This document shows positions 6,022 through 44,454 of a DNA stretch of 44,890 nucleotides, one piece after another. The DNA comes from Parcubacteria group bacterium GW2011_GWA2_40_23 (GTDB lineage Bacteria; Patescibacteriota; Patescibacteriia; UBA11705; JABHMO01), in NCBI GenBank assembly GCA_000996245.1, contig LBYP01000006.1, forward strand, positions 1 to 44,890, read 5' to 3'. Under the pieces are notes generated by a model, which saw only the letters and a list, made by a program, of their open reading frames with translations, was not told the DNA's origin and made no database searches. The first letter of the stretch is position 1, and each line of letters starts with the position of its first letter. The position numbers and the translations under genes are program-made.

Positions 6022-6249
6022 TTACTAATTACTAATCTTTTTACGAATTTACAAATCGTTACTAATAGTGCAAATTACGGACAGTCCCAACTGATAATTA
6101 GTAATTATTAGTAAATTAGTAGCAGATTAGTAATTACTAATCTTCTTACGAATTTACAAATCGTTACTAATAGTGCAAATTACGGACAATCCCAACTGAT
6201 AATTAGTAATTATTAGTAAATTAGTAGCAGATTAGTAATTAGTAATTTA
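6022..6249. repeat. Tandem about 120-bp TTAGTAATT repeat
   Basis: Two near-identical copies of a unit that runs from ACTAATCTTNTTACGAATTT through GTGCAAATTACGGACA to TTAGTAGCAGATTAGTAATT. Each unit is flanked by TTACTAATTACTAATC and its inverse, so each can fold into a long hairpin. It occupies the whole gap between smpB and ssrA. Confidence 0.8.
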
Positions 6250-10584: not shown

Positions 10585-10627
10585 AAGGTTCCCGTAACTC
10601 CACCTGAGTTGCGGGACCTTTTCTTTA
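10585..10627 (+). terminator. Terminator of the 165-residue orphan
   Basis: AAGGTTCCCGTAACTC pairs with GAGTTGCGGGACCTT (one T-T and one bulge), then TTCTTT. Confidence 0.85.
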
Positions 10628-10750
10628 ATTTACTAATTACTAATCTAATACTAATCTACGAATAGTTACGAATGGTAATCTACGAAATAATATCATCAAC
10701 AAAAAACTAGCGACCAAATATTTTCTAGTCCCTAGTTTCGAGTCTCTATT
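10628..10750. repeat. TTACTAATC and CTAGTCCC word repeats
   Basis: Mixed words ACTAATTACTAATC, TACGAATAGTTACGAATGG and TTTCTAGTCCCTAGTTTCG. No gene. Confidence 0.6.
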
Positions 10751-10980: not shown

Positions 10981-11080
10981 ATTACTTACTAATTACCTGC
11001 CTGCCGGCAGGCAGGCTAATCTTATTACTAATTTACTAATATTTACTAATTACTAGTCACTGGTCCCTAGTCGCCGGTCA
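10981..11080. repeat. Repeat block with CCTGCCTGCC palindrome copy 2
   Basis: TTACTAATTAC-type words flank the perfect 20-bp palindrome at 10996-11015 (identical to 1892-1911). They are followed by ACTAGTCACTGGTCCCTAG words. Confidence 0.75.
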
Positions 11081-17000: not shown

Positions 17001-20000
17001 AAAATTCGTGAATTATCGTCCCCACCTGCCTGCCAAAGGTCTTGATGGCCATCATTATTAGCATCAAAAACAGCAACCACATAATAATCTGGAGACAAAG
17101 TTTCTTCTTCAAAATAGATGTCTGTTGTATTTAAAACAATAACTGAAGCAAAACTACCAGGTATGTGGAAATCCAAAACACCATCACCATTGTAATCGCC
17201 CACATCAGCCGTATATGCTCCAAAATTCTCTCCATCATACACAGAAGCACTTGTCTCATCAAAAAAACCAGTACCATCATTTACATAGAGATAATAATTT
17301 GATTCCATAATATCAGCCGCCAGCAAATCTTCATCACCATCCGCATCAAAATCACCATGGTTTAATGTATAATTGATATACGGCGTCTCATCTCTTTCAT
17401 CGACAGTAAAACCACCCACACCATCATTGAAATATAAGCTTCCATACTCATAACAATCTAAGTCTCCGTCATTATCAAAGTCAACAATAGCGATGCTTGT
17501 ACTAAATATCTGACTAAAGGATAATTCTACAACCGAGAAAGATGCGTCTTTGTTATTAAGATATAAATTACTTACCGCACCTTTATTAACTATAACAAAA
17601 TCTAAATATGTATCTCCATTAAAATCTGCTATGGCAACATCATCAGTGACAGAATTGATGCCAACCAGTGGGCTATCTCCCATAAAAGAAAACGACCCGA
17701 CACCATCGTTTAAAAATATTTTGCTTTCACCTCCATTATCATCATTAAAATAACCAACGATAAAATCTAAATCACCATCTTTATCAATGTCGCCCATATC
17801 AACACTATCTCCAAAATCGACACTGGCATTAGCAGTCAAAGAAAAAATTCCAGTGCCGTCATTAATAGCTACAACATAACCATCGGCGTGAACCAACAGA
17901 ACATCTAAATCACCATCAACGTCCATATCACCCACTGCGATATCCAAACAGGTCGTTGAGCCTGAATAACCAAGTGCAAAATTACCAGTTCCATCATTAA
18001 TCATTATTTTAAATGACTCAAGATCACCACCATAACATTGTGCAAAATCCAAGTCGCCATCAGCGTCAGCATCAAAACTTTTAGCAACTGCAGCCGCAAC
18101 CTGGTTGGTAGTCGCAAAAGAACCTATAACTGCACTTTGTTTTATCGAGCCATCACTAAAACTTGTAATTGAATTTGATAAATCTAAACCAGCATCAGTA
18201 ATAAAAGTATCTTCAAAGGGAATATCACTTAAATCTGTAGGCGCAGGGTCTGTAATTATAAAACTTCTGACCTCACTATATGCATCCGAAGGAAGGCCTA
18301 ACACATAAGCACGCACGCGCCAATAATATGTTAATCCCGGAGCAAAATAATATCCTGCGGGCAAAGTAAAACTAGCTGTGTCGCCACTGCCATAAGCATT
18401 TATTTGAGACCAACCTAAAGTATTTGTTCTTTGATCAAAATACTTATCTGTAGTTGAAAAAGATTCATCATCAGAAAATTCCAGTCGATAATCAATAACA
18501 GAACTATCAGGATCAACTGCCGACGCAAATTCAAAAGTTGGGTTCAAACTAATTCCCGTAGCCTCATCATCAGGCGAAATCAAGGTCGGTGCAGTGGGTA
18601 TTACTGATAATGTTGAACCATCCGCAGTAGCATAATCAGAATAGCCATTACCATTATAAGCTCTTAGTTGGAATTCATAGTGTATACTTGGGTCTAAATC
18701 ATTAACAGGATATGACTCTTGATCAACCCCCACCCCCAAATCAACCTCAGTCCAGTCTTCAGATCCATAGACACGAACATACAATTCAAAACCGGTTTCA
18801 TCAGTTGAATTATCAGTCCAGGTCAGTTGGATTGACTGGGCGGTGCTGTCAGCAACAGTCAAATCTGTTGGCGCAAGTGGCGCAGCATTAGCAGCATCAA
18901 AAAACATCAAACGCATAGCACCAGTATCTGCAACTATAGCCTGTCTTGACGCACTGACATATTCCACATCAACAGGATCATTTAAACGATTTTGTTCAAA
19001 ATCAGAAAGACTAGTCGTAAATAAGCTTTGTCCAATGACATTCGCAGCCGCTTCTCCATCACTAATGTCCTCCAAATCAAAAACTAAAACTCTATTATGT
19101 TCGCTCAGAGATGCATCAGTAACAAATAAACGATCCTGCCCAGCATCATAATCAATACCTGCCGGAGTAAAGTGCGAAGCATCTAATGTTACAGGTAAAG
19201 AAGCTGTTAAATTTGTTTGTCCTAAAACATTTACAGCCGCTTCTCCATTGACAATCGTATCAACATCATAAATCATAATTCTAGGACATCGAAAATCATC
19301 ATCAGCCACAAAAAGATAATGACGAGTAGCATCATAAGACAAGGAAACAGGATTACCAATAGCGACTTCAGTACAAAAAGAAGTATTATTAGTTACAAAA
19401 TCACCCACGCCCAAAACAGTTTCAGCAATCATACTATTGCCCAGAGCCGAAGTATCAAAAACTAAAACGCGATTATACAATTTGTCGGCTACAAATAAAC
19501 GTCCATCCTCATCTATAGCCAAACTACTTACCTCGAATATCCCCGCGGCCGGACTGGCGGGAAGACCATTAATATCAAGTTCACCACCTTGACCAATAAC
19601 ATAAATAGCATCTTTACCGTCATCAATGGTCGCTGTATCAAAAACCATAATTCTATATTTGTCGGCAACATAAAGGTATCCAGAAGTTGAATCATAAACA
19701 GCATCACGCAACGCAACTGAATCTGACAACTTCGCCACAGTAGGGCCAGAAGGAGAATTGTCTTCGTCTAAATCTTCTGCACCTAAAATATTATCAGCCA
19801 CCGTATCTTCTAACTCGTTTTGGGTATTTAAATCGAAAACCATTACCTGTGGTCCATTGTTTTCATCGCCCACAAAAAGACGGTGGTTAACTTCATCAAC
19901 AGTTACAAAGGAAATCTCATCAAAAGTCCAAGCATTAGGCGTGCCATTAAAAGTACCGCCTAACTTTTGCATCCAACCGCCAGTTTCTCTGTTTATTTGT

Positions 20001-21241: not shown

Positions 21242-21638
21242 AATTATTCTTTACCCAGTACCTTAACGATTAGCGAAAGACACTGGGTCTTTCACGATTT
21301 ATTATAGCATTTTTTTAGCGAATTTCAGAGGATTTTTGAGTTACTTATACACAGAACAAGTGACCAGTGACTAGTGACTAGAGACTAGTACTCAATTGCT
21401 ATGTTTCAATCGCTAAAGAGTAATTCGTAACCATCATATTTATGAAGCTATTCGTAACAACAGATTGCTTCGTCGTCCTCCGCTGCGCCCCGTCTTCCTC
21501 GCAAATCGTCCGTAATTATTCGTAGATTTGCTCGCCTCGCTTCACGTTCGAAGCGGGTCTAACATCAAATCGAGCTGTTAATCATAATAATCATAATAGT
21601 AATCATGGTAATCATAGTAGTAATCATGGATATCATAG
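21242..21638. repeat. Repeat-rich spacer
   Basis: Nothing coding is supported. It holds ACTAG words (21360-21390), TTCGTAAC words (21425-21450), a copy of an element shared with 32601-32700 in the opposite orientation (21467-21545, with CTCGCAAATCG and TCGTAGATTTGCTCGCC), and a microsatellite-like run of AATCATAGT/AATCATGG words (21578-21640). Confidence 0.65.
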
Positions 21639-21685: not shown

Positions 21686-22444
21686 TCAGCGACCGCGTAC
21701 GTAAACGTCTTCGATGGCCGTCGCGATCTCGGCGATCGTTTTCTCGGCCGCGGCGCGTGGGTCGTCAGCCTTGGTGATCGGCCGACCAACGATGCAGAAT
21801 CTCGCACCAGCTTCGATAGCCAAGTGCGGAGTCATGGGGCGCTTCTGATCATCCCCAGCGACCAAACTCCACTCTGGCCGAATCGCCGGCGTACCCAGGA
21901 GCAATCCATCTAGTTCCTTACGTGAACGGATCAACTTGGCTTCCTGCCCCGAACAGATGATGCCGTTCAGACCGGCCAGCTTGGCCATACGCGCAAAGCG
22001 CAGAACACCAGCCTTGGTCGAACAGCCGAAGATGCTCTGGCACTCGTCTTCGTCCAGCGACGTCAGTACCGTCACGGCGAAAACCAAGGTCTCGGGTCGA
22101 AGTGCTTCACGCACGGCCATCATGCCCTCGATTCCGGCGTTGGCCATGACCGTCACGATGGACGGATTGTAGTCAGCCAATATTTGAGCGTCGGTACGCA
22201 TGGTTTCCGGGATGTCGCAGAGCTTCAGATCGGCCATGACTTGGACGTTCTTAAGGTGCAGGCGCGGAATCAGTTCTCGAACTCCCTCGCAACGCAAGAG
22301 CGAGTTGACCTTGATCGTCACGCCAGTTCCGTCGAGCTTGTCGACGAGCGTGAACAACGCTTCACGAAGACCAGCAGCACCACCGCAAAGAGCCGGAGCG
22401 AAGTCAGCCGCCACGATCAATGCTTGAGCAGGTTCCAGTTTCAT
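21686..22444 (-). CDS. pyrF: Orotidine 5'-phosphate decarboxylase
   Basis: 252 residues. The enzyme makes UMP from OMP, the last step of de novo pyrimidine synthesis. The TIM-barrel landmarks are present: IVAADF at the first strand, TIKVNSLL, and the catalytic MADLKLCDIP segment (DxKxxD), then TVMANAG and a phosphate-binding VGRPITKADDPRAAAEK end. SD AAGAGGTG is five bases before the ATG. The gene follows pyrE by 20 nt and shares its terminator. GC-rich. No other pyrimidine biosynthesis gene is in the window, so it may serve salvage of orotate. Confidence 0.9.
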   Translation of the reverse strand: MKLEPAQALIVAADFAPALCGGAAGLREALFTLVDKLDGTGVTIKVNSLLRCEGVRELIPRLHLKNVQVMADLKLCDIPETMRTDAQILADYNPSIVTVMANAGIEGMMAVREALRPETLVFAVTVLTSLDEDECQSIFGCSTKAGVLRFARMAKLAGLNGIICSGQEAKLIRSRKELDGLLLGTPAIRPEWSLVAGDDQKRPMTPHLAIEAGARFCIVGRPITKADDPRAAAEKTIAEIATAIEDVYVRGR

Positions 22445-22464
22445 GTTTCACCTCTTTCGTCTGT

Positions 22465-23106
22465 TTACTTCGGGTTGGTCAGGGCGCCCCAATACGCTTT
22501 GGGACGAACAACTTCGGAACCACCTGCGCAGAGCGGGCAGATTTCCTTCGCGGGGTCCCAGGTCGGCAGTTCGCGATCTACGAGGGCAATAAGACCCCTT
22601 CCGTTCAGGGTTGATTTCCCCGAACGGTTCACGAGCACGGCGATGTCGCCCAGAACGTTTCCACCCGCAGCTTCGAGAGCCGCGATGGTCTCGAGGGTCG
22701 TTCCACCGGTCGTCATCACGTCTTCGCAGACGAGAATGTACGTACCGGACTTGAAGCTAAAGCGCTTCAGTTTCATGGACTTCTTCTTCGTGATCTCATC
22801 GACCACTGGCTCGGTGAAACCACAACGCATCCCAGTCTGACGAGCCATCTCGTATGCGAGGGTACTCGCACCAAGCGCTGATCCGAAAACCTGGAAGTCG
22901 CCGGAAGGCAGATCGAGCAGGGCCAAGAGATCCTTGCAAGCCTGTGCGCAAAGACGAGGATCGCTGATGACACCGCTGCCATTGAAGAAGCCGCTGCTGT
23001 GCTTGCCGGAAGTGAGCAGGGCGTGCGGATGCGTGGGGTTGCCGTCGTGGCACCAGTACAGCCCTTTCTCGAGGAAGATCTTTTCCCAAGTTGACATCTC
23101 AGCCAT
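22465..23106 (-). CDS. pyrE: Orotate phosphoribosyltransferase
   Basis: 213 residues. The enzyme joins orotate and PRPP to give OMP, the substrate of the adjacent pyrF. Visible landmarks: LTSGKHSSGFFNGSGV (substrate loop), FGSALGASTLAYEMA, and the PRPP motif ILVCEDVMTTGGTTLE with the acidic pair E-D. The C-terminus carries a CPLCAGG motif. The ATG at 23104-23106 has AGAGGTG upstream; an internal Met at codon 4 is less likely. First gene of the GC-rich pyrE-pyrF unit. Confidence 0.9.
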   Translation of the reverse strand: MAEMSTWEKIFLEKGLYWCHDGNPTHPHALLTSGKHSSGFFNGSGVISDPRLCAQACKDLLALLDLPSGDFQVFGSALGASTLAYEMARQTGMRCGFTEPVVDEITKKKSMKLKRFSFKSGTYILVCEDVMTTGGTTLETIAALEAAGGNVLGDIAVLVNRSGKSTLNGRGLIALVDRELPTWDPAKEICPLCAGGSEVVRPKAYWGALTNPK

Positions 23107-32171: not shown

Positions 32172-32200
32172 TTGACAAAAAGATGTTTTTGCGCTATAAT
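32172..32200 (+). promoter_or_regulatory. Consensus promoter of the 73-residue gene
   Basis: TTGACA, exactly 17 nt, TATAAT: a full consensus sigma70 promoter. The bases before the -10 (TTTTTGCGC) recur before the -10 of the next unit (32779-32787). Confidence 0.9.
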
Positions 32201-32242
32201 ATAAATAGTTGTTTAGAGTGTCAACCATCACTGGAGAACTCC

Positions 32243-32464
32243 ATGACCGGAACTCGTAGAGAAGGCGTCTGGATCGGAATCCTCCTGGCTATCATGGGCC
32301 TGGCGTTCCTGGTGGCGGACCTCTGGACTGTGGTGACCGGCACGGTCAACTTCGCCCAGCACATCCCGTTCCTCGTGCCACTCGCCTGCTTGGGGGCCAT
32401 CATCACGATCGCCGTCGTGGAGGGCTCGCCCGTGTCGGCCGACGCCATCGACATGGACGACTGA
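32243..32464 (+). CDS. Small two-helix membrane protein (GC-rich unit)
   Basis: 73 residues. A basic N-terminus (MTGTRREG) precedes helices at about 9-30 and 40-60, and the tail is acidic (SADAIDMDD). The ATG has GGAGA six bases upstream. No family is recognised. GC-rich, with a consensus promoter and its own terminator. The layout is close to that of the 79-residue gene at 36774, but the sequences are not clearly alike. Confidence 0.65.
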   Translation: MTGTRREGVWIGILLAIMGLAFLVADLWTVVTGTVNFAQHIPFLVPLACLGAIITIAVVEGSPVSADAIDMDD

Positions 32465-32484: not shown

Positions 32485-32524
32485 CCCCCTCAACCGGATC
32501 ATCTGGTTGGGGGTTCATTTTTGC
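32485..32524 (+). terminator. Terminator of the 73-residue gene
   Basis: CCCCCTCAACC pairs with GGTTGGGGG (one bulge) around GGATCATCT, followed by TTCATTTTTG. Confidence 0.8.
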
Positions 32525-32760
32525 TATGATTTTCATGATTAGCCTGATTACTATGATTAGCAGCTTAGATTTGCAGTCGATCCAGCTTCGAACGCGAAAC
32601 GAGGCGAGCAAGGCGGGCACATCTACGAATATTCCGATCCGATTTGCGAACCCCGCATTGCTAAAATATTATGACGGGGTGAAGCAATCTTTTGCAATCA
32701 GTTGCAAAAGATTGCGTCGTCTTTTTAATAGCTTACATCGACTCCTCGCAAATCGACTCG
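32525..32760. repeat. Repeat-rich spacer between two GC-rich units
   Basis: Starts with ATGATT-type microsatellite words, then an element shared with 21467-21545 in the opposite orientation (CGAGGCGAGCAA, ATCTACGAATATTCCG, CGATTTGCGA, GTGAAGCAATC). A TTTTGCAATCAGTTGCAAAA hairpin lies near 32690. No gene is supported. Confidence 0.6.
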
Positions 32761-33740: not shown

Positions 33741-33915
33741 GACACCCCAACCTAAAACCGCTACATTACTAGTACCTTCTACTACCCCTAGAACATCTGT
33801 TCTAAAGGGGCTGTTGTGTTTATTTCCTTAATTCTTATTCTTAATTCTTTACCTTAATTCTGCCTAACTATTCTAACTATTCGTAGATTAGTAGCAGATT
33901 AGTAATTAGTAATTT
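33741..33915. repeat. Spacer with TTCGTAGATTAGTAGC repeat
   Basis: Contains an AGAACATCTGTTCT palindrome (near 33789), TTAATTCTTA words, and the common CTATTCGTAGATTAG/CAGATTAGTAATTAG block ending just before uvrA. Confidence 0.6.
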
Positions 33916-36498
33916 ATGCAAAACAAAATCACCATCAAAAACGCGCGCGAACATAACCTCAAAAATGTTAATCTGGAAATTCCACGCAACAAAATGGTTG
34001 TGTTTACTGGCCTCTCAGGCTCAGGCAAATCGAGCTTAGCTTTTGATACTATTTTTGCTGAAGGCCAACGCCGCTATATCGAGAGTCTTTCGTCCTACGC
34101 TCGCCAATTTTTAGGTGGCATGCAAAAGCCCAATGTGGACGAAATTACTGGTCTTTCTCCAGCTATTTCTATTGATCAAAAAGCTCATTCTGCCAACCCA
34201 CGCTCAACCATAGCTACCATCACAGAAATATACGATTATTTGAGGGTTCTCTATGCTAAAATCGGCAAACCGCATTGCCCACTCTGCAACACTCACATGG
34301 AAAAAATGACTATTGATGAAATGGTCGATCACATTTTGAACAAAATATTTGCTCAACCAGAGTCAGCCAAAGATGTTATGGTTCTATCCCCGATTGTCCG
34401 CGGTCGCAAAGGCGAATATTATCAACTTTTGTACGACACCTACAACAATGGTTTTTTAGAAGCCCGCATCGACGGCAAAATGTATAGCCTTAAAGAACAA
34501 GTCATCATTAAAAAAACTACGAAGCACACGATAGAAATTGTCGTCGATAAAATCACTCTTCTTCACCCTATCAAAGAAAATGACAATAAAGGTTTTAAAC
34601 AACGACTCAGTGAAGCAGTCGAAAATGCAGTTGAACTCTCGGACGGACTTTGTACTGTTATTTATCCAGACAAATCAGAAAAGATCTTCAGCACCGAATA
34701 TTCTTGTACCAACGATGGTTATAGTTTCCCGGAAATTGAACCGCGGCTTTTTAGTTTTAACAGTCCATATGGTTATTGCGAATATTGTACTGGCCTTGGA
34801 ACAAAGGAACTTTTTAGCGAAGAGCTCTGCCCTGTTTGTCACGGAAAGAGATTAAACCAGAATGCTTTGAGTGTCCGCATCGCTAATAAAAATATCTGGG
34901 AAATCACAGAAATGAATATTGCCGAAGCTCAAATTTTTATTGATAAATTAAGAACCAAATTAAACAAAAAAGAAATAGAGATTTCTGAAATTATTTTGAA
35001 TGAGATTATCAATCGTTTACAGTTCATGCTTGATGTGGGACTTCATTATTTAACTTTGAATAGACGAGCCGGAACTTTGTCTGGTGGCGAAGCGCAACGT
35101 ATTCGTCTGGCTTCACAAGTTGGAACCAAACTTGTTGGTGCTTTATATGTTTTAGATGAGCCGACTATCGGTTTGCATCAACGTGATAATGAAAAACTTG
35201 TAAACACTTTGCGCAACCTCTGCAATATCGGCAATTCTATTATTATTGTTGAACATGACGAAAATACTATTTTGACGAGTGATTGGCTCGTCGACATTGG
35301 CCCTGGAGCTGGAACTCATGGCGGAGAGATTATTTATTCTGGACCGATTGATAATATTCTTAACACCAACAAATCATTACCAGCCATCGCTGATGATTGC
35401 TTGGTCATGGGCGACCCCAAAAAATCTTTGACTGGCAAATATTTAAGACGCGAAGAAAACATCAAATTACCAGATAAAAGACGCAAGGTTGATGCCAACA
35501 CCCCACGCATTATCATCAAAAAAGCTAATGAGCATAATATAAAAAATCTTGACATTGAATTACCACTACGACGTTTTGTTTGTTTGACGGGCGTTTCTGG
35601 CTCCGGCAAATCTACCTTGATGCACGATGTTCTTTATCGCGCTGTTATGGATGCCACACATCACAAACGACCTCGAGAGAAAAATTATCAAGAAGTCCAC
35701 GGCGCTGACAATATCGACAAGATTGTTAAGATTGACCAAAGCCCTATTGGCCGAACTCCACGCTCTAATCCAGCGACTTACACCAAAGCCTTTGATTACA
35801 TCAGAGAAATTTTTGCTTCAACTCAAGAAGCCAGAATTCACGGGTACAAGGTTGGTCGTTTTAGTTTTAATCGTCCTGGCGGCAGATGCGAACACTGCGA
35901 AGGCCATGGAACTTTAGAAATTGAAATGCACTTTTTACCCAGCGTGACAGTTGAGTGTGATGTCTGCAAAGGAAAAAGATTCAACAAGGAAACATTACAA
36001 ATTCACTATAAAGGCAAAAACATTTCTGACATTCTAGATATGACTATTGAAGACGCTGAAATATTTTTCAAAGACATTCCTTTCGTCAACGACAAATTAC
36101 GTGTTTTGAATGAAGTTGGCTTGAGTTACTTAACTCTCGGTCAATCAGCTAAAACATTATCTGGTGGCGAAGCTCAACGAATCAAACTTAGTCGAGAACT
36201 CGCCAAACGCAGTACAACCAAAACTTTATATCTTCTTGACGAACCAACCACCGGATTGCATTATGATGATGTCAAAAAACTACTTCATGTTTTACAACGC
36301 TTAGTCTCGCAGGGAAACACCATCATGGTTATTGAACATAATTTGGACGTGATCAAATCCGCAGACTGGATCATCGACATGGGACCAGAAGGTGGCAATG
36401 CCGGCGGGCAGATAGTGGCCGCGGGTACTCCGGAAGATATCGCCCGCCGGTCAACCACAAGTTGGACTGGTAAATACTTAAAGGATTATCTCAAATAG
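33916..36498 (+). CDS. uvrA: Excinuclease ABC subunit A, compact form
   Basis: 860 residues against about 940 in most bacteria. UvrA is the ABC-type damage sensor. Both ATPase halves are intact: Walker [10 protein letters not shown] (about 32) and GVSGSGKST, two [10 protein letters not shown] signatures, and two LDEPT boxes. The shortfall lies in one place: between the first CxxC ([11 protein letters not shown]) and the second ([10 protein letters not shown]) of the first zinc module there are about 15 residues, where most UvrA have over 100. The C-terminal zinc module ([17 protein letters not shown]) is complete. Starts directly after a repeat, without SD. Confidence 0.96.
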
Positions 36499-36510: not shown

Positions 36511-36645
36511 AGCGTTGGATAACACGGGTCTGGGTCGACTTCGCCGTCGCGCGAACCACGAATTTGCCAAGCACCACGCGAATTGGAGACCCAGCCACTT
36601 TTTGCTTACTTTTTGGTGGTCAAAAAGTAAGGAGGGAAAAAATAA
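36511..36645 (+). repeat. GGGTCTGGGTCGACT element, copy 1
   Basis: Starts AGCGTTGGATAACACGGGTC and continues through TGGGTCGACTTCGCC, a variable centre, GAATTGGAGACCCAGCC, and a CTTACTTTTTGG/CCAAAAAGTAAG-type hairpin (36605-36631). It then runs into AGGAGGGAAAA. The outer parts are imperfectly inverted. Related copies: 37081 (short) and 44294-44427 (minus). Confidence 0.85.
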
Positions 36646-36705
36646 TTTATTCAACAATTCATAGGGAATCCCGTTAGCGTGGTTCCCGATATTTTTTCCA
36701 ACCAC

Positions 36706-36734
36706 TTGACAACAACAACCAAACAACCTATACT
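36706..36734 (+). promoter_or_regulatory. Promoter of the 79-residue gene
   Basis: TTGACA, 17 nt, TATACT. Confidence 0.8.
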
Positions 36735-36773
36735 CTCCTTTCCTGTATTTCCTAAACCAATCGAGGTATACTC

Positions 36774-37013
36774 TTGAAAGAAGAAACTTGGAGCAAGCTG
36801 ATTCAACTTTCCCTCGCGCTCTTTGCCGCCCTCTTGTTCACCTACGGAATCTACGATCTAATGACGAACCAGTCCGGCCTGCTATATCACAACCTCTTCC
36901 TCCCGTTCTTTCTTATCGGAGCCATCTTCATCGTCCGTAAGTTGGACAAACAACTCGCCGAGATGGAGGCGGAACAGGCGGACACGCCGTACAGAAGCCT
37001 TTTTCACGGTTGA
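36774..37013 (+). CDS. Small two-helix membrane protein (GC-rich unit)
   Basis: 79 residues from a TTG start that has GAGGT seven bases upstream; no ATG fits better. Helices lie at about 8-29 and 38-55, with a charged acidic tail (VRKLDKQLAEMEAEQ). No family is recognised. The complete unit (promoter, SD, gene, terminator) lies between two direct copies of AGCGTTGGATAAC-CGGGTC (36511 and 37081). Confidence 0.65.
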   Translation: MKEETWSKLIQLSLALFAALLFTYGIYDLMTNQSGLLYHNLFLPFFLIGAIFIVRKLDKQLAEMEAEQADTPYRSLFHG

Positions 37014-37021
37014 AAGGAACC

Positions 37022-37056
37022 GACTCTAGCAAGCCAAGCTGCTAGAGTCCTTTTTT
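37022..37056 (+). terminator. Terminator of the 79-residue gene
   Basis: GACTCTAGCA pairs perfectly with TGCTAGAGTC around AGCCAAGC, then CTTTTTT. Confidence 0.92.
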
Positions 37057-37080
37057 ATTTAATTTTAGTTCTTTTATTGT

Positions 37081-37110
37081 AGCGTTGGATAACTCGGGTC
37101 TGGGTCGACT
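37081..37110 (+). repeat. GGGTCTGGGTCGACT element, short copy
   Basis: 30 nt identical to 36511-36540 at 29 positions, same orientation, 570 nt downstream. Confidence 0.85.
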
Positions 37111-37240
37111 CAGCTATTGACCAGGTTAGCCGAAAGCACCCTGCTTTCGACATCAGGGGAATCCGGAGGGAGGAGTGACCACCACTCCACGTTTTGAGGG
37201 GTTCAGCACCGTGTTGCTGGACCTCTCATTTTTTTTCTAA
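37111..37240 (+). other. GC-rich unit without a credible gene
   Basis: It contains the control parts of a GC-rich unit but hardly any coding space. There is a hairpin CGAAAGCA-CCC-TGCTTTCG, a strong SD (GGAGGGAGGAG) and a terminator (37196-37236, GAGGGGTTCAGCA against TGCTGGACCTCTC, then eight T). The only frame after the SD starts at GTG 37175 and gives 21 codons that run through the terminator, so it is probably not a real gene. It may be a deleted unit or a small RNA. Confidence 0.45.
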
Positions 37241-37313
37241 GAATAGAGAAAAAACGATTTTGTTGTTAAGTATCAACAAATTCTGTATAATAGTATTACT
37301 TAACTAAATTTAT

Positions 37314-38081
37314 ATGCCATTGGATAAAGAATTACAAAAAATTGGGCTTTCGGACAAGGAATCGAAAGTTTACTTGGCTGCCCTAGAGTTGGGGCAAGCC
37401 TCGGTCCAGAACATTGCTCGTAAGGCTGATGTTAATCGTGCCACCACGTATTCGATTTTAGAGGCACTAATTAAAAAAGGTCTTTGCAGTACCACGGAAA
37501 AAGAGAAGAAGGTTTTGTATTTTACCAGCCCACCAGAATCATTGTTGTCCATTTTCGAGCTCAAGCGCAAACAAATGGAAACCGAGGAAGATGCTTTTAA
37601 AAATCTTTTGCCAGATTTAAATTCTATTTTTAATAAACAAGCCGATAAACCAACGGTTCGTTTTTTTAATGGTCGACAAGGTCTCTTGAATAGTATTGCC
37701 GAATTTTATCGTGAAAAGTCTGAACCAAACGAACCGGTACGTATGCTTTATAGTAAGGACTTAATTGAAAAAGTAATTGATGAACGAGAGCGTGCCAAGT
37801 TTCGCAAAATTCGCATGACCCGCGAAATTAAATCAAAAGTCATTTATAATTATGAAAATGGAGTTTTAAAAACTAATGTCGATGGACAAAGACGGAAAGT
37901 CAACCTTCAAGAATATCCAATCGCTTGTGACATTGAAATTTTGGGTGATGCTATTTTATTTGTTCCCTTAACAGATAAGCTCCATGCTGTTTTAATTAAA
38001 GATCGACAAATTGCGGAAACGATCAAGGTCTTGTATAACCTGGCATGGCTCGGAGCAGAGATTAAGGAAGAAAAAGAATAA
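37314..38081 (+). CDS. TrmB-family transcriptional regulator
   Basis: 255 residues. The N-terminal winged HTH matches the family (LSDKESKVYLAALELGQASVQNIARKADVNRATTYSILEALIKKGL). A coiled linker (SIFELKRKQMETEEDAFKNLL) follows, then an effector-like domain (about 110-250: TVRFFNGRQGLLNSIAEFYREK, ending AILFVPLTDKLHAVLIKDRQIAET). TrmB regulators often sense sugars; the ligand here is unknown. Single gene after a TATAAT, without SD. The gene at 27106 is a decayed relative. Confidence 0.87.
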   Translation: MPLDKELQKIGLSDKESKVYLAALELGQASVQNIARKADVNRATTYSILEALIKKGLCSTTEKEKKVLYFTSPPESLLSIFELKRKQMETEEDAFKNLLPDLNSIFNKQADKPTVRFFNGRQGLLNSIAEFYREKSEPNEPVRMLYSKDLIEKVIDERERAKFRKIRMTREIKSKVIYNYENGVLKTNVDGQRRKVNLQEYPIACDIEILGDAILFVPLTDKLHAVLIKDRQIAETIKVLYNLAWLGAEIKEEKE

Positions 38082-38084
38082 TAG

Positions 38085-38226
38085 TTACGAATAACTGCAT
38101 AAAAAGGATGTTACGAATTACTGCTTAACAATTAGATGTTAATAATAATTTGTAACTTCCAATTAGAATGTTTTATTCGTAACAAATAATTCGTAACATC
38201 ATAATAAAAGTACTATTCGTAAAAAG
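38085..38226. repeat. Nested inverted TTACGAAT repeat
   Basis: GATGTTACGAATT (38107-38119) pairs perfectly with AATTCGTAACATC (38190-38202). Outside it AGTTACGAATA pairs with the final ACTATTCGTAA. Two stems can therefore form one inside the other. Confidence 0.8.
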
Positions 38227-38227
38227 T

Positions 38228-38749
38228 ATGAAGGGTTTTAAAAACATAATTATTTATATTCTGATAGTCATAGTTTTATCGTTAGCGATCTTCGTGTTAT
38301 TTCAGTATTATGCTGGAGTCGAGACTGTCGATAGGGCAGTTGTAAAAGATGAACCAGAAATAGTGAAGGTTATGATTTATTATTCTAACTCGGTTAAGAA
38401 TCCAGCCATGTTAGATTGTTCCCTGGTTTTTTCTGTTGAACGTGTCGTTACAAGCCGAGAAAAAATATATGAGGCAACAATCAATCAGCTTCTTTTGGAA
38501 CCGACTAAAGAAGAAATAACTCTTGGGTATAAAAATTTGATTCCAGTTGGAACAAAATTAAACTTTGTAAAATTTGATAATGGAATTTTGCAGGCCGACT
38601 TTAACGAAAGTCTTGACCGAGGCGTGGGTGGCTCATGTTTAGTCTCTGCTATCCGATCTCAGATCGAAAGGACAATGCAACAATGGCCTGAAGTTAAGAG
38701 TGTTGTGGTTTCGATAAAAGGGGAGAGTGAAATTATTTTACAACCATAA
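38228..38749 (+). CDS. GerMN-domain membrane-anchored protein
   Basis: 173 residues: an N-terminal membrane helix (about 6-28) and a GerMN domain (about 45-170) with the typical VKVMIYYSN start, ATINQLLLEPTKEE, LIPVGTKLNFVKFDNGILQADFNESL and SAIRSQIERTMQQWPEVKSVVVSI. The domain occurs in cell-wall and spore-germination proteins; here it is outside the membrane with unknown partner. Ends one base before rlmN, so the two are coupled. Confidence 0.85.
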   Translation: MKGFKNIIIYILIVIVLSLAIFVLFQYYAGVETVDRAVVKDEPEIVKVMIYYSNSVKNPAMLDCSLVFSVERVVTSREKIYEATINQLLLEPTKEEITLGYKNLIPVGTKLNFVKFDNGILQADFNESLDRGVGGSCLVSAIRSQIERTMQQWPEVKSVVVSIKGESEIILQP

Positions 38750-38750
38750 T

Positions 38751-39749
38751 ATGGATTTTAAAAAGATAGATAAAATTTTAGAAACAGCACCAAGCTTTAG
38801 ACGAGCTCAAGTGAAGCGTTTTATTTTTAAAAATTTAATTGAGGATTGGGAAGAAGCGACTTCATTATCTAAGGATCTTCGAGCTCTAATGTCTTCAAAG
38901 TTTAGTTTAAATATTGAACATCAGAGATCAGAAAGTAAAGAAAACAATACGACTAAAGAATTAATAACGCTTGAAGATGGTTTTCAGATTGAAACTGTTT
39001 TGATGCGGCATGAAGATGGCCGCAATACTGTTTGTGTTTCTTCTCAGGTTGGCTGTGCCTTGGGTTGTGATTTTTGTGCCACGGGAAAGCTTGGCTTCTT
39101 CCGCAACTTAACAGCCAACGAAATTGTCATGCAAGTCTTGTTATTCAACCGATTGCTCAAAAAAGAAGGCAAGCAAGTCACTAATGTTGTTTATATGGGC
39201 ATGGGTGAGCCGATGCTTAACTATGAGAATGTTATTAATAGTATTCACTTCATGAACAATAAAGATGTCTTTGGTTTGGGTGCACGTAAATTTTCTATTT
39301 CGACTGCTGGGGTGGTTGAAGGTATTAAAAAGCTGATTAAGGAGCCAATGGAAATTAATTTGGCTGTCTCTATTCATGCGCCAAATGATAAACTTCGAAC
39401 AGCATTAATGCCAATTAACAAAAAATGGAATCTAAAACAATTATTTACAGCCATTGATGAGTACATTGCCAAAACCAATCGGCGCGTGATGCTAGAATAT
39501 ACGTTGATTAAAAATGTTAATGATTCACTTATAGAAGCTGCTCAGTTAAAAGAACTAGCTAGAAATAAATTGTGTTTTATAAATTTAATTACTTATAATA
39601 AAACTAAGTTTTACGCACCGCCTTCGTCGGCTGTGGTAAAACGATTCGCAGATTATTTAGAGAAGCACCGAGTCGCTTTTACTTTTAGACAACGCTTTGG
39701 TCATGATATTGCCGCGGCGTGTGGGCAGTTGGCCAGGAAGAAGAAATAA
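38751..39749 (+). CDS. rlmN: rRNA/tRNA adenine C2-methyltransferase RlmN
   Basis: 332 residues from the ATG right after the GerMN stop; an upstream TTG is inside that gene. RlmN is a radical-SAM enzyme that methylates A2503 of 23S rRNA and A37 of some tRNAs. The CALGCDFCATG cluster motif (CxxxCxxC), YMGMGEPMLN, STAGVV, and the C-terminal catalytic Cys in AAACGQL are visible. AT-rich. Confidence 0.94.
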   Translation: MDFKKIDKILETAPSFRRAQVKRFIFKNLIEDWEEATSLSKDLRALMSSKFSLNIEHQRSESKENNTTKELITLEDGFQIETVLMRHEDGRNTVCVSSQVGCALGCDFCATGKLGFFRNLTANEIVMQVLLFNRLLKKEGKQVTNVVYMGMGEPMLNYENVINSIHFMNNKDVFGLGARKFSISTAGVVEGIKKLIKEPMEINLAVSIHAPNDKLRTALMPINKKWNLKQLFTAIDEYIAKTNRRVMLEYTLIKNVNDSLIEAAQLKELARNKLCFINLITYNKTKFYAPPSSAVVKRFADYLEKHRVAFTFRQRFGHDIAAACGQLARKKK

Positions 39750-39788
39750 AAAATGTCGTACTTCGGTAAGCTCAGTATGACATTTTTT
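39748..39788. terminator. Terminator between rlmN and superoxide dismutase
   Basis: AAATGTCGTACT pairs with AGTATGACATTT (one mismatch) around TCGGTAAGCTC, with T-runs for both strands. The inner TCGGTAAGCTCAGT resembles the dispersed CTGAGC-type hairpin core. Confidence 0.8.
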
Positions 39789-39813
39789 TATTTGTGTTCT
39801 TACGATTTGTTAG

Positions 39814-40392
39814 TTAGAAGAATTTTAGTACGTTCCACCAATTTTCGATGTGTTCGGCACGACGATTTTGATATTTAAGATAGTAAGCATGTTCCCAAAC
39901 ATCAAGATTAAATATCGGTGTATCGCCGAGCGTGTAAGGCGAGTCTTGATTGGGAAGTGAATACATCTTTAGTTTTCCTTCTGGGGTTCTGACTAGCCAA
40001 GCCCAACCACTGCCAAATTGTTTGAGGGCAAGGTCGGAAAACAGTTTTTTGAACTCATCAAGAGAGCTAAAGGTTCTAATTATTTCACGCGCGAGATCTG
40101 TATTTTCTTCTTTTTGTGGAGCTAAACTTTCCCAATAAATTTTGTGATTGATGTAACCGCCGCCGTGATTTTTGATTGCTGTTTTTGTGGCCTCAGGAAC
40201 GTTTAATGAGTTTAGGTTCCTGAAGATTTCAACCAATTCCATTTGTTGGATTTCTGGAAAGTCAGTCAAAGCTTTATTAAAGTTGTCAGTGTAGGTCTGA
40301 TGATGCTTAGAGTAATGGATCTCCATTGTTTCTTTGTCGATAAACGGTTCGAGCGCATCGTAGCCATAGTTTAATTTTGGTAGAGTAAACAT
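39814..40392 (-). CDS. Superoxide dismutase (Fe/Mn)
   Basis: 192 residues, normal length. It converts superoxide to oxygen and peroxide. The four metal ligands are in place: His26 (EIHYSKHHQTY), His in GGYINHKIYW, and Asp and His in LDVWEHAYYLKYQNRR. Whether iron or manganese is used cannot be read safely. No signal peptide, so cytoplasmic. Single gene, convergent with rlmN, without SD. Confidence 0.95.
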   Translation of the reverse strand: MFTLPKLNYGYDALEPFIDKETMEIHYSKHHQTYTDNFNKALTDFPEIQQMELVEIFRNLNSLNVPEATKTAIKNHGGGYINHKIYWESLAPQKEENTDLAREIIRTFSSLDEFKKLFSDLALKQFGSGWAWLVRTPEGKLKMYSLPNQDSPYTLGDTPIFNLDVWEHAYYLKYQNRRAEHIENWWNVLKFF

Positions 40393-40507
40393 AATTTTGC
40401 TGTTAGTTACTTATATCTTTATTATCTCATATCAAGACGTGCAATGCTAGATACATGGTAATTTTAGTCAAAATGTGTTAAGTTAATAACAATAAATCAA
40501 TACCATT

Positions 40508-41767
40508 ATGGCAAGAGTCACAATCGAAAAACTAGTCTATGGCGGTCAAGCTTTAGCTCGAAACGAGAATAAGGTCATTTTTGTTTGGGGAGCTTTACCA
40601 GGAGAAGAAGTTGAAGTAGAAATAACCAATCAGAAAAAGAATTTTGCCGAGGGAGTCGTCACTAAGATCTACAAAGCCTCACCAGATCGTCTCGAACCGA
40701 TTGAAGGTCATTATGCTTCGTGCAGTCCTTGGCAAATTATGAAACCTAAGACAGAGGATTATTGGAAAAAAGAGATGACTCTTGAGATGTACAGGAAACT
40801 CGGATTTTTGCCAGAGGATTTAGAAATAGATTTAATTTCAGATCAAAATAAATTTGAACATTACAGAAATAAGATAGAATATAATTTTTGTTTAAATGCT
40901 GATAATGAAATTAGTTATGCATTTTTTGAACGTAATACTAATGACCTGATTGCCATCTCTGATTGTTGCTTGGCGAGTAAAGCGATTGGAATAGCCTCAG
41001 CAAAAGTTTTAACATGGCTAAGACAATCAGGATTGAGTATCGAAATTTTAGCGAAAATTATTTTCCGCAGTAATGAAGTGGGCGAAGTTATGGCTGATCT
41101 TTTTATCAACCAAAAAAAGGAATTGATTAGCACACCAGCTTGGGATGAAAATTTGGTTAGTTTCCAAATATATTTAACAGAAGATAGGGGCGGAGAACGA
41201 ATATTTTCACAAGGCAAGAAGACGCTAGTGGAAAATTTTAATGATTTTACTTTTCGTTTTGATGGTTTAAGTTTTTTTCAAGTTAATTGGCCTATTTTTA
41301 CAAAAGTACTTGAGGATATTCAAGCGGTCGTTGATGATGAATCTCTTGTCGTAGATTATTATTCTGGGGTTGGGGCAATCGGGTTGTCGCTAGCTCATCG
41401 AGTTCAAAAAGTAACGTTGGTTGAATCAGACGATAATGCTATTAACTTAGCGAGACAAAATATTCAAGATAATAAAATAACCAATTGTAATATTCTGAAG
41501 GGCGATTCGAGCGAATTACTCGATTCGATCACAAAAAGTCGCACAGTTATTTTTGATCCACCACGCGCAGGGTTAGATGCACGGGTTATCGATCGCATTC
41601 TTTATCAAAAACCAAAGCAAATTATTTATCTTTCTTGCGACCCGGCTACTCAAGCTCGCGACTGTGCCAAGTTAAAGAATGATTATATTGTTAAAATGAT
41701 TCGACTTTATAATTTTTTCCCAAGAACACCACATGTAGAAGCTCTGTGGGTATTAGAACGAAAGTAA
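40508..41767 (+). CDS. RNA (uracil-5-)-methyltransferase, RlmD/TrmA type
   Basis: 419 residues. An N-terminal TRAM domain (VTIEKLVYGGQALARNENKVIFVWGALPGEEVEVEI) is followed by the SAM-binding core (VVDYYSGVGAIGLSLA, VESDDNAINLARQNI, VIFDPPRAGLD) and the catalytic YLSCDPATQARD. It methylates uracil in rRNA or tRNA. The CxxxxxCxxC iron-sulfur motif of RlmD is not complete: one Cys follows YAS, and the others are missing. Which RNA position is modified cannot be told. Starts a three-gene set with truB and the MazG-like gene. Confidence 0.88.
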   Translation: MARVTIEKLVYGGQALARNENKVIFVWGALPGEEVEVEITNQKKNFAEGVVTKIYKASPDRLEPIEGHYASCSPWQIMKPKTEDYWKKEMTLEMYRKLGFLPEDLEIDLISDQNKFEHYRNKIEYNFCLNADNEISYAFFERNTNDLIAISDCCLASKAIGIASAKVLTWLRQSGLSIEILAKIIFRSNEVGEVMADLFINQKKELISTPAWDENLVSFQIYLTEDRGGERIFSQGKKTLVENFNDFTFRFDGLSFFQVNWPIFTKVLEDIQAVVDDESLVVDYYSGVGAIGLSLAHRVQKVTLVESDDNAINLARQNIQDNKITNCNILKGDSSELLDSITKSRTVIFDPPRAGLDARVIDRILYQKPKQIIYLSCDPATQARDCAKLKNDYIVKMIRLYNFFPRTPHVEALWVLERK

Positions 41768-41768
41768 T

Positions 41769-42413
41769 ATGGAAAATATTTTTGGTGTATATAAACCTCA
41801 AGGACCAAGTTCATTCTCGATAATTTATCAATTACGAAAAATTTTCAATATCAAAAAAATTGGTCATGCCGGCACGCTTGATCCACTCGCTGATGGTGTT
41901 CTTGTTGTCGCTGTCGGTCGCGTTGCCACCAAGCAGTTGACGTCTTTGATTCAAAAAGAAAAAGAATATCTTGCGACAATCAAACTTGGTTTTACAAGTA
42001 CGAGTGACGATGGAGAAGGAACAATAACTCCGCATGTCGTTGAGCAACAACCAACTGTTGAACAAGTTAAAGATATTCTCAAAGATTTTATCGGAGAGAT
42101 AGAACAGGTGCCGCCGATCTTTAGTGCTTTGAAAATAAATGGAAAGCCAGCTTACAAATATGCACGTGCTGGCAAAGAGTTGAAGATGGAATCAAGAAAA
42201 GTCGTGATTAATGAGATCGAGCTGATAAAATATTCTTGGCCAGAGTTAGTTGTCCGTGTTGATTGTGGATCTGGTGTCTATATTCGTTCGTTAGCACGTG
42301 ACATTGGTGCCAAACTGGGCGTCGGTGCTTATATGTCCGGACTTACGCGGACTCGCGTCGGAGAATTTACACTCGATAAATGTATCCGCTTGGAGGAGCT
42401 GACGTCGTCATAG
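41769..42413 (+). CDS. truB: tRNA pseudouridine-55 synthase TruB
   Basis: 214 residues. It makes pseudouridine 55 in the T-loop of tRNAs. The catalytic segment GHAGTLDPLADGVL (Asp in LDP), YLATIKLGFTSTSDDGEG, VPPIFSALKINGKPAYKYAR, and CGSGVYIRSLARDIG are clear. It is shorter than the 300 or so residues of E. coli TruB because the C-terminal PUA-type domain is missing, as in some other small versions. One base after the methyltransferase gene. Confidence 0.95.
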   Translation: MENIFGVYKPQGPSSFSIIYQLRKIFNIKKIGHAGTLDPLADGVLVVAVGRVATKQLTSLIQKEKEYLATIKLGFTSTSDDGEGTITPHVVEQQPTVEQVKDILKDFIGEIEQVPPIFSALKINGKPAYKYARAGKELKMESRKVVINEIELIKYSWPELVVRVDCGSGVYIRSLARDIGAKLGVGAYMSGLTRTRVGEFTLDKCIRLEELTSS

Positions 42414-42497
42414 AACATGGAACATAAAGCAATTAATAAATAATATGTGTTAAGCTTGAAACTTATCTCGCTTAAAACTTGTCTCGCTATAAATAAT

Positions 42498-42827
42498 ATG
42501 ACATTCGATGAATATCAAGTTGAGTCCAAAAAAACAGCGCTCTATCCAAATAAAGGAAGTAACTTTATTTATCCAGTGCTTGGATTGGCTGGTGAATCTG
42601 GAGAAGTTTCGGAAAAGATTAAAAAAATCATTAGGGATGATAATGGTGTTGTGACTGAAGAGAAACGTCAAGAAATAAAAAAAGAACTTGGTGATGTTCT
42701 TTGGTATATTGCTCAGCTTTGTTCGGAGTTTAATTTAGGAATGGATGATGTAGCCAAAGCAAACATCGAAAAATTAATGTCTCGTATGGAACGTGGGGTG
42801 TTGCATGGGAGCGGGGATAATCGATAA
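42498..42827 (+). CDS. MazG-like nucleotide pyrophosphohydrolase
   Basis: 109 residues from the ATG at 42498. An earlier in-frame start would add residues encoded by a CTTGAAACTTATCTCGCTT-type word repeat and is less likely. The all-alpha MazG fold has its two acidic motifs: LAGESGEVSEKI (ExxE) and EIKKELGDVLWYI (ExxxD), which bind magnesium. Such enzymes remove non-canonical or excess NTPs. AT-rich. Confidence 0.88.
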   Translation: MTFDEYQVESKKTALYPNKGSNFIYPVLGLAGESGEVSEKIKKIIRDDNGVVTEEKRQEIKKELGDVLWYIAQLCSEFNLGMDDVAKANIEKLMSRMERGVLHGSGDNR

Positions 42828-42832
42828 AATAA

Positions 42833-42940
42833 AAGTTACGAATAGTACAATTATATGGATGTTACGAATTACTGCTAGCACTTAATCGTAAAAAGTAATT
42901 CGTAACTTCATTATAGAAAAGACTTATTCGTAACTTTTAT
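42833..42940. repeat. Nested inverted TTACGAAT repeat
   Basis: GTTACGAATTACT pairs with AGTAATTCGTAAC, and outside it GTTACGAATAGT pairs with CTTATTCGTAAC. Same design as 38085. The far arm reaches into the last codons of uvrC. Confidence 0.75.
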
Positions 42941-44197
42941 TTTACGTAATTCTCGATTGTATTTGATTGCAAAGCGATGCGCCTCGTCCCGCACTTGAAT
43001 AAGTAGATTTTTGTTTTGTGTTAACCATTTAGCTAGTATCTTTGGTGCAAGAAATTCATTCTTTTTTCTACTGGGTCCTTTGGCAATGCCGATGACGGGA
43101 ATCTCGATTTTATTCAACGTAAGAATTTCTTTAACAGCATTGACTTGCGGTTTGCCGCCGTCAATCAAAAACAGTTGAGGTAGCGACCACTCGGCATGTT
43201 TGAGTCTGCGTGTCAGAATTTCTTTTAAACAATCGACATCGCTTTGTCCAATAACAGTTTGTATTTTAAATTTTCGATATTCCGACGTTTCGGCTTCTCC
43301 ATTTATGAATACAACCATCGAGCCGACTTTGTCAGTTGTGTTGAGGTTGGAGATGTCGTAGCCTTCGATCCGTTTGATATTGTCGCACTTCGGCTCAGCA
43401 CCACTCACTGCGTTCGGATGCTGAGTAAACCTCAGTGTGACAATATCGGTGTAAAAGTTTTTATTTAACAAAGCTACGTCATGAATTTTCTTTAAGTCTG
43501 AGATTTGGTCCCGCAATCGTTGTGCTTCTTCATAATTTTCATCTTTAGAAACTGATTTCATTTGTTTCTCCAAGTCTTTGATCAATTGTTTTTTATTGCC
43601 CTTGAAAAATAATGTCAAAGGACGTACGACTTTTTTGCTGTATTCCTTGGATGTGATCTCATTCGTGCAAACACCGAGGCATTGTTCCAGTTGATAATAA
43701 AAACAAGCACGTGCTTGTGTCGGTGAACAGGATGAGTATGCAAAAAGTTTTCGGAGTAGTTTTAAAATCGCTTGGGTATTTAAACCAGGGAAGGGACCAA
43801 AGACATTGAGAAACTTTTTCTTTTGTTCGGCTAACGAGAGTTGCTTTAAGTCATGCTGGCGAATAGCTTTTAGCGTGGGGAATTCTCTTTTTGTAATCGC
43901 TAAGTAATTCCAGCTTTTATCGTCCTTGCCGAGAATATTGCATTTTGGTTGATATTTTTTGATGTAATTCGCTTCTAGAATGATTGCTTCGAGTACTGAA
44001 TCAGTGACTATCCATTTAATGTTTTTAACTTCGTCGATTAGCGACTCAATTGGACGAGGTGATTTTTGTCCAGCAAAATAGGAGCGAACGCGTGATTTTA
44101 GGCTCGTGGCTTTGCCAACATAAACAAGCTTTTTGTTCTTATCGAAAAAGAGGTAAATGCCGGGTTTGGTTGGGATGTTTCTGATTAGGGATTTCAT
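42911..44197 (-). CDS. uvrC: Excinuclease ABC subunit C, short form
   Basis: 428 residues against about 600 usually. UvrC makes both incisions in nucleotide excision repair. The GIY-YIG nuclease (KPGIYLFFDKNKKLVYVGKATSLKSRVRSYF), the UVR motif (DLEKQMKSVSKDENYEEAQRLRDQI), and the RNase H-like nuclease (EGYDISN, LIDGGKPQ, RDEAHRFAI) are present. The C-terminal helix-hairpin-helix DNA-binding part is absent. About 24 residues just before EGYDISN (TDIVTLRFTQHPNAVSGAEP...) are encoded by a palindromic repeat. Confidence 0.94.
   Translation of the reverse strand: MKSLIRNIPTKPGIYLFFDKNKKLVYVGKATSLKSRVRSYFAGQKSPRPIESLIDEVKNIKWIVTDSVLEAIILEANYIKKYQPKCNILGKDDKSWNYLAITKREFPTLKAIRQHDLKQLSLAEQKKKFLNVFGPFPGLNTQAILKLLRKLFAYSSCSPTQARACFYYQLEQCLGVCTNEITSKEYSKKVVRPLTLFFKGNKKQLIKDLEKQMKSVSKDENYEEAQRLRDQISDLKKIHDVALLNKNFYTDIVTLRFTQHPNAVSGAEPKCDNIKRIEGYDISNLNTTDKVGSMVVFINGEAETSEYRKFKIQTVIGQSDVDCLKEILTRRLKHAEWSLPQLFLIDGGKPQVNAVKEILTLNKIEIPVIGIAKGPSRKKNEFLAPKILAKWLTQNKNLLIQVRDEAHRFAIKYNRELRKIKVTNKSFL
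43376..43447. repeat. Palindromic repeat inside uvrC
   Basis: GATATTGTCGCACT (43376-43389) pairs with AGTGTGACAATATC (43434-43447) at 13 of 14 positions, and inside it GCTCAGCA pairs with TGCTGAG(T). The 72 nt equal 24 codons, so the frame is kept. The core resembles the dispersed CTGAGC hairpins. Confidence 0.85.
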
Positions 44198-44223
44198 AGA
44201 TCTGTATGTGCTTGTCTAGTTTA

Positions 44224-44251
44224 GTACGTGCTAGTCTAGACTAGCACGTAC
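44224..44251. repeat. 28-bp perfect palindrome, copy 2
   Basis: GTACGTGCTAGTCT followed directly by its exact reverse complement. Outer bases are shared with 27034-27061, inner bases differ but still pair. Confidence 0.9.
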
Positions 44252-44293
44252 ATATTGTAGATTGGATAATATAAAATGTGAAGGATTGTTTTC

Positions 44294-44427
44294 TTTTCCC
44301 TCCTTACTTTTTGGCCGCCAAAAAGTAAGCAAACCTGCCGGCAGGCAGGAAGCGGCTGGGTCTCCAATTCGCCGTAGGGAACAAAAATTATTGTTCCCTA
44401 CGGGCGAAGTCGACCCAGACCCGAGTA
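44294..44427 (-). repeat. GGGTCTGGGTCGACT element, copy 2
   Basis: Minus-strand copy of 36511-36645: ACTCGGGTCTGGGTCGACT, then a different centre with its own perfect hairpin (CCGTAGGGAACAA/TTGTTCCCTACGG), GAATTGGAGACCCAGCC, a shortened CCTGCC palindrome (44334-44349), and CTTACTTTTTGG-type hairpin (44303-44329). It lies directly downstream of the GC-rich gene at 44498-44773, in the same orientation. Confidence 0.85.
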
Positions 44428-44454
44428 ATGCAATGTATTTAAAATTTCATTGCA

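Follow-up and report, generated by a model that had tools for sequence, protein, structure and literature searches.

The 30-bp direct repeat that frames a GC-rich orphan gene in this Parcubacteria contig is a fragment of an apparently undescribed mobile element with an unusual, conserved knot-like fold. We think it probable that this is a non-autonomous mobile element of miniature size (about 120-235 bp), and that recombination between its copies led to a chromosomal inversion and to the insertion or duplication of single genes. The window considered here is the whole 44,890-nucleotide stretch (contig LBYP01000006.1, positions 1 to 44,890). A preliminary description of this DNA had reported a repeat at 36511-36540 and 37081-37110 in the same orientation, and 29 of the 30 bases are indeed equal (BLAST E 1.8e-6 within the 44.9-kb window). 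It had also placed a promoter-SD-gene-terminator unit between the two copies, and all of its parts were found (Table 1), with GAGGT preceding the TTG start of the 79-aa ORF. This ORF, with 51% GC in surroundings near 38% GC, matched no family over any curated cut-off. The third repeat copy likewise lies where it had been described, on the minus strand and 3' of the GC-rich 91-aa ORF. The element itself is longer, a structured sequence of about 120 nt of which the 30-bp repeat forms only the 5' end. As a separate observation, the stretch between the second repeat copy (E2) and the trmB-like gene (37111-37236) is GC-rich, contains no ORF, and holds several hairpins and a strong terminator; it is possibly a small RNA.

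Table 1. Features of the window around the element copies, in order of position.
Feature	Position	Strand	Basis or remark
uvrA	33916-36498	+	NF001503, 1265.9 bits; E1 directly 3'
E1, full element	36511-36636	+	sequence; model R1 131 bits (E1 among the R1 training sequences), R2 72 bits
Repeat copy 1	36511-36540	+	14 bp of 5' flank plus first 16 bp of element core
E1 hairpin P1, arms	36530-36536 CTGGGTC / 36588-36594 GACCCAG	+	sequence
E1 guide CAC	36596-36598	+	complementary to first three bases of loop GTGGT
E1 T-loop TTTTTG	36599-36604	+	sequence
E1 stem S2	36605-36615 / 36621-36631	+	encloses loop GTGGT
Segment probably inverted between E1 and E3	36637-44297	.	synteny with G002, G006, G009
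Sigma-70-like promoter	36706-36734	+	TTGACA-17-TATACT, 11/12 matches
GC-rich orphan ORF, 79 aa	36774-37013	+	TTG start, 51% GC
Intrinsic terminator of GC-rich unit	37022-37056	+	stem 37022-37049, then CTTTTTTATT
E2, truncated element (repeat copy 2)	37081-37110	+	30 bp, then no pseudoknot part
Terminator-like hairpin, strong, 8 T	37195-37236	+	closes ORF-less GC-rich stretch 3' of E2
uvrC	42911-44197	-	adjoins E3
E3, full inverted element	44298-44431 (repeat match to 44294-44441)	-	models R1, R2
GC-rich orphan ORF, 91 aa	44498-44773	-	50% GC, stops about 70 bp before E3

Two further, diverged copies lie on another contig of the same genome (C13), where they form 227-bp direct repeats that are 84.6% identical and enclose one GC-rich gene of 249 aa. 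The copy counts in this genome rest on sequence searches; these found only four full copies, which rules out a genome-wide high-copy repeat, and no plasmid copy of E1. E3 carries a 16-nt CCTGCCTGCCGGCAGG insert ahead of its T-loop. The CCTGCCTGCCGGCAGG palindrome of E3 (44334-44349) is present again at 10996-11017 in the window, and in the element copies of the relative G006 the hairpin is split by insertions resembling it.

The 5' half of the element is a long imperfect hairpin of the GGGGTCTGGGG...CCCCAG type. The 3' half is regular and runs through three guide bases, a T-run followed by G, the stem strand nTTACTTTTTG, a loop usually of four bases, and the opposite stem strand CAAAAAGTAAn. 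The guide was complementary to the first three loop bases in 50 of 69 pairs, with 23 distinct combinations, while shuffling gave 28.7 ± 3.6 and none of 20,000 shuffles reached 50 of 69. Independent copies from other genomes, picked by a pattern in which the guide was left free, gave 60 of 93 compared to 40.6 ± 4.3, again with 0 of 20,000 shuffles as high. With this guide:loop pairing, the 3' half is an H-type pseudoknot. A consensus fold of 32 pairs fits the four full copies of this genome, with changes on both sides in 7 of these pairs, and across 41 copies 12 of 17 pairs are changed in this way; the fold is maintained through compensatory change. In 32 of 41 copies, the loop's T-run and the A-run (purine run) of the stem match each other in parallel register, and a copy in the relative G042 has TCTTT opposite AGAAA, which is the order that Hoogsteen U-A-U and C+-G-C triples would have. 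The T-rich loop therefore appears positioned for a predicted U-A-U (T-A-T) triple helix. Telomerase RNA and the SAM-II riboswitch are H-type pseudoknots with a U-A-U triplex, and the element resembles them in that a U-rich loop 1 runs in parallel register across the deep groove of an A-U stem. Each of them is a single RNA or riboswitch, however, whereas here the fold, with its predicted triplex, forms the core of an intergenic element found at dispersed sites. A known RNA family was rejected as the identity of the element, as a scan of the window and related loci with Rfam 15 returned no family over the gathering score.

Using a covariance model, we found the element in 17 of 55 relatives, a count that includes its own genome as well as two relatives with short partial matches only (G010 and G040). 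A broader covariance model detected it in all 5 genomes of the family, 9 of 10 of the order (the Falkowbacteria neighbourhood), 77 of 381 of the class, and 14 of 240 genomes drawn across the phylum; by matches to named GTDB records, the close relatives fall among Candidatus Falkowbacteria. The genomes compared are mostly draft MAGs. There were 1-13 copies per genome in the samples scored, and because the large scans scored a capped number of candidates in each genome, their copy numbers are minimum values. The 3' pseudoknot core, combined with different upstream hairpins, also occurs in Algoriphagus and other Bacteroidota, in Alphaproteobacteria, in Saccharibacteria, and in other genomes. In Candidatus Parcubacteria 0813_bin18, about 20 copies of the pseudoknot motif were seen on JAHWKN contigs (e.g., L134, L137, L151, and L205), many of them no more than a few hundred bases from a contig end, and a recent high-copy expansion of the motif in this genome is likely.

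Copies of the element disperse within and between genomes. In the two congeners G008 and G009, copies of 235 bp that are 84% identical occupy non-orthologous loci, and the flanks of the G009 site are 1475 bp apart in that genome compared to a 67-bp gap in G008, the extra DNA consisting of the element and a 224-aa gene. Because the 235-bp copies of the two congeners are at unrelated loci, one of them with an empty allele, we conclude that the element moves, in line with the earlier proposal that the repeat is part of a moving unit. In G003, G004, and G006, paralogues at dispersed loci share about 140-320 bp at roughly 70-95% identity. An examination of copy ends established neither a target-site duplication nor a consistent terminal repeat, and weak imperfect inverted ends were found in G008 (14 nt, 86%) and C13 (34 nt, 74%).

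A probable effect of the element on gene order is seen at uvrA and uvrC (UvrA, UvrB, and UvrC were identified by NCBIfam). In the six relatives compared here (G001, G002, G003, G006, G010, and G019), uvrC is adjacent to uvrA on the same strand, and the genome of the window is the only one among those compared in which uvrC is inverted and 6.4 kb from uvrA. The gap between the two genes holds neither element nor gene in G001 (19 bp), G003 (225 bp), and G019 (194 bp), an unrelated 542-aa gene in G002, and a GC-rich 250-aa gene with a truncated and a full element in G006; in G010 (L327 6172-6562) it is 390 bp long and contains a decayed GC-rich ORF and no element. Junction alleles that lack the element therefore exist. 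The full, inverted elements E1 and E3 adjoin uvrA and uvrC and coincide with the breakpoints of the inverted block, and when the flip between them is undone, the order becomes uvrA-element-uvrC as in G006, with mazG(-) rlmN(-) next as in G002, and uvrC-sod as in G006 and G009. The simplest account of the inversion, supported by this synteny, would be that E1 and E3 recombined, which would have flipped about 7.7 kb and parted uvrA from uvrC. Alternatively, the elements may have been inserted at breakpoints made by other means. Because E1 and E3 are only 72% identical overall, the inversion would have to be old or to have proceeded via short identical blocks.

The preliminary description had seen in the repeat the boundary of GC-rich units. 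Part of this stands, as direct copies enclose GC-rich genes here, on C13, and in G042, but the idea that the repeat defines such units was not supported. Around 101 elements, GC-rich genes (10 points above the local median) made up 15 of 185 neighbours (8.1%) compared to 44 of 917 others (4.8%, p=0.07); a first, smaller sample had given p=0.83, and a tie of the element to GC-rich genes as such was rejected. The window contains about nine GC-rich ORFs compared to four full element copies in the whole genome, most of its other GC-rich ORFs have no copy, and the decayed GC-rich ORF of G010 is free of the element as well. Two observations had been named as speaking against the boundary idea, namely copies equally frequent next to AT-rich genes and a lack of empty sites; the copies are about equally frequent there, and empty sites do exist. 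That the GC-rich genes came from phages or other viruses was also rejected, as the best PHROG match (E 0.02) was unconvincing and two genes had no relative on a viral contig.

Among the direct-copy intervals that contain genes (L128, L086, L246, and E1/E2 of the window), 3 of 4 hold a single GC-rich gene compared to a background of 4.8% (p=4e-4; 2 of 3 and p=0.007 without the window). The earlier idea is best supported by G042, where the arrangement is cassette-like: two neighbouring units have 217-bp element ends that are 99.5% identical and 188-bp promoter ends that are 76% identical, and their proteins have no detectable similarity to each other. Same-direction copies, such as those at E1/E2, C13, and G042, may recombine or duplicate and thereby occasionally capture, duplicate, or swap the single intervening gene, which would often be a GC-rich orphan; for C13 and G042 we infer this mechanism from structure alone. 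If the repeat belongs to a recombining mobile element, the GC-rich unit would therefore be a passenger between copies and not a repeat-defined unit. At L086 6876-9238, we observed two adjoining units with near-identical ends, unrelated GC-rich proteins, and a degenerate third element.

For the E1/E2 pair only, it is possible, if rather unlikely, that the second copy arose by duplication of a short local stretch or is what remains of a second insertion, and that the enclosed GC-rich gene arrived independently; this would not conflict with the main explanation. With only 30 bp, E2 is short enough to have come from a local duplication, and the element-free GC-rich ORF in G010 and the small number of GC-rich genes flanked by the element are consistent with this; however, the 14 bp outside the element core are also common to E1 and E2, and full copies occur in the same arrangement on C13 and in G042.

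The placement of the elements is far from random and raises a different alternative. Convergent gaps are enriched in elements (26 of 82), divergent gaps rarely have one (8 of 110), and gene 3' ends are preferred, as might be expected of a structured RNA or 3'-end signal, such as a terminator or stability element, that is selected and spread horizontally without being mobile itself. The strong compensatory conservation across phyla and the matching fold shared by distant phyla would also fit. We nevertheless consider this improbable, as the strand that forms the T-loop pseudoknot is mostly antisense to neighbouring genes (the 3'-side gene is antisense to it in 77 of 101 cases, p=1e-7), a conserved upstream promoter was not seen by eye, the flanking genes are unrelated, and the sites of the congeners are non-orthologous.

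This strand bias could instead point to a recombination site similar to integron attC, at which a recombinase acting on the gene-antisense folded strand would insert or swap single-gene units. Like the element, attC sites are imperfect single-strand hairpins in direct repeat after single-gene units, with a folded strand that is mostly gene-antisense. The tandem gene-element array of G042 and the gene between the direct copies of C13 resemble an array of direct sites that each follow one gene, and the element with one gene that is present in G009 and missing from G008 would fit such an exchange. We regard this as quite improbable, however, because most elements are single and located between ordinary genes, most GC-rich genes of the window have none, and the element, unlike attC, has a pseudoknot. 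An integron integrase (intI, TIGR02249) over the cut-off was found in 0 of 55 genomes, and the core boxes RYYYAAC/GTTRRRY are absent at the base of the hairpin, where the P1 arms read as CTGGGTC/GACCCAG-like. GTTGGAT was rejected as an attC motif, as it occurs only in the E1/E2 flank, has no paired partner that we could see, and is not accompanied by an integron integrase. It is very doubtful that the element is the folded single-strand site of an integrase-independent cassette system in Patescibacteria, with a triple-helix pseudoknot site shared across phyla, in which unrelated genes, often GC-rich orphans with their own promoter and terminator, would be exchanged between conserved ends.

We return to the miniature mobile element, which is most likely a dispersed recombination substrate and which resembles REPINs and MITEs in behaviour. 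REP/REPIN elements are mobilised by RAYT (TnpAREP) (PMC3116915, PMC8266576, PMC3733652), and the element is like them in being short, non-autonomous, palindromic, intergenic, dispersed, and multi-copy, in having a folded strand, and in occurring in genomes with Y1 genes. However, REP/REPIN elements of the GTAG or CGTC type carry a conserved tetranucleotide tag at an end of their 20-40 bp palindrome, while the element has no conserved tag (of 102 copies, 18 had GTAG and 10 had CGTC close to the 3' end, and fewer had them at the 5' end). It also differs in its length of about 120-235 bp, its long hairpin with an H-type pseudoknot and predicted triplex, its low copy number, and its location away from RAYT genes. 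Y1 transposases were present in all 15 element-bearing genomes (the partial-match G010 and G040 were left out) compared to 21 of 40 others (p=0.0009), and outside the order the correlation was not significant (p=0.07). The folded single strand may be processed in trans by such a Y1 (HUH, IS200/RAYT-like) transposase, but this mobilising enzyme is a guess because the elements do not flank Y1 genes: when 20 Y1 loci were searched with model R2, a clear element within about 3.5 kb was found at only one (G006, 1.7 kb), and a RAYT-flanking element was rejected. MITEs, other TIR-flanked elements, and "TIRtron" repeats (PMC3733652) are comparable in size, dispersal, hairpin symmetry, and the weak TIRs of G008/G009, and the non-orthologous copies and empty alleles that we found are also MITE-like. 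In contrast to MITEs, the element has a highly conserved internal fold, and neither a parent transposon nor a target-site duplication was found. Because the tag, RAYT adjacency, integrase, and core boxes all fail, we place the element with neither REPs nor integrons. Searches of the literature for integrons, MITEs, or cassettes in Patescibacteria, and for the sequence of the stem, returned nothing relevant.

The window also contains other repeats. Palindromic TTACGAAT repeats lie inside the putative inverted block at 38077-38222, after the trmB-like gene, and at 42828-42944, between the mazG-like gene and uvrC, with direct and inverted copies that are 73-75% identical. A second repeat family, unrelated to the element studied here, has inverted copies at 21499-21617 and 32524-32649 (73% identical), each just 3' of a GC-rich gene (the pyrF-like gene at 21686-22444 and the ORF at 32183-32464). 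The region 21686-23106 encodes an orotidine-phosphate decarboxylase and a phosphoribosyltransferase-like gene at about 57% GC in an AT-rich genome, a GC-richness that resembles that of the orphan GC-rich ORFs. Short AT-rich TTAGTAATTAGTAA-like repeats (148-205, 816-862, 6022-6249, 10617-10676, 11016-11060, and 33867-33916) are located at several gene boundaries, including those 5' of tmRNA and uvrA, and the minus strand of 11081-21241 carries a 3386-aa ORF with internal tandem repeats near 12746-13141.

A structured mobile repeat family of this kind was not found in Rfam 15 or in the papers searched. As a correction to the preliminary description, the repeat does not mark GC-rich genes as such. 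The Patescibacteria have small genomes and poorly known routes of gene gain, and in the element they have a specific repeat, predicted to adopt a tertiary fold, whose copies are found where a chromosomal inversion and single-gene inserts occur. Because its pseudoknot core is also present in Bacteroidota and Alphaproteobacteria, structured mobile repeats of this family appear to be widespread.
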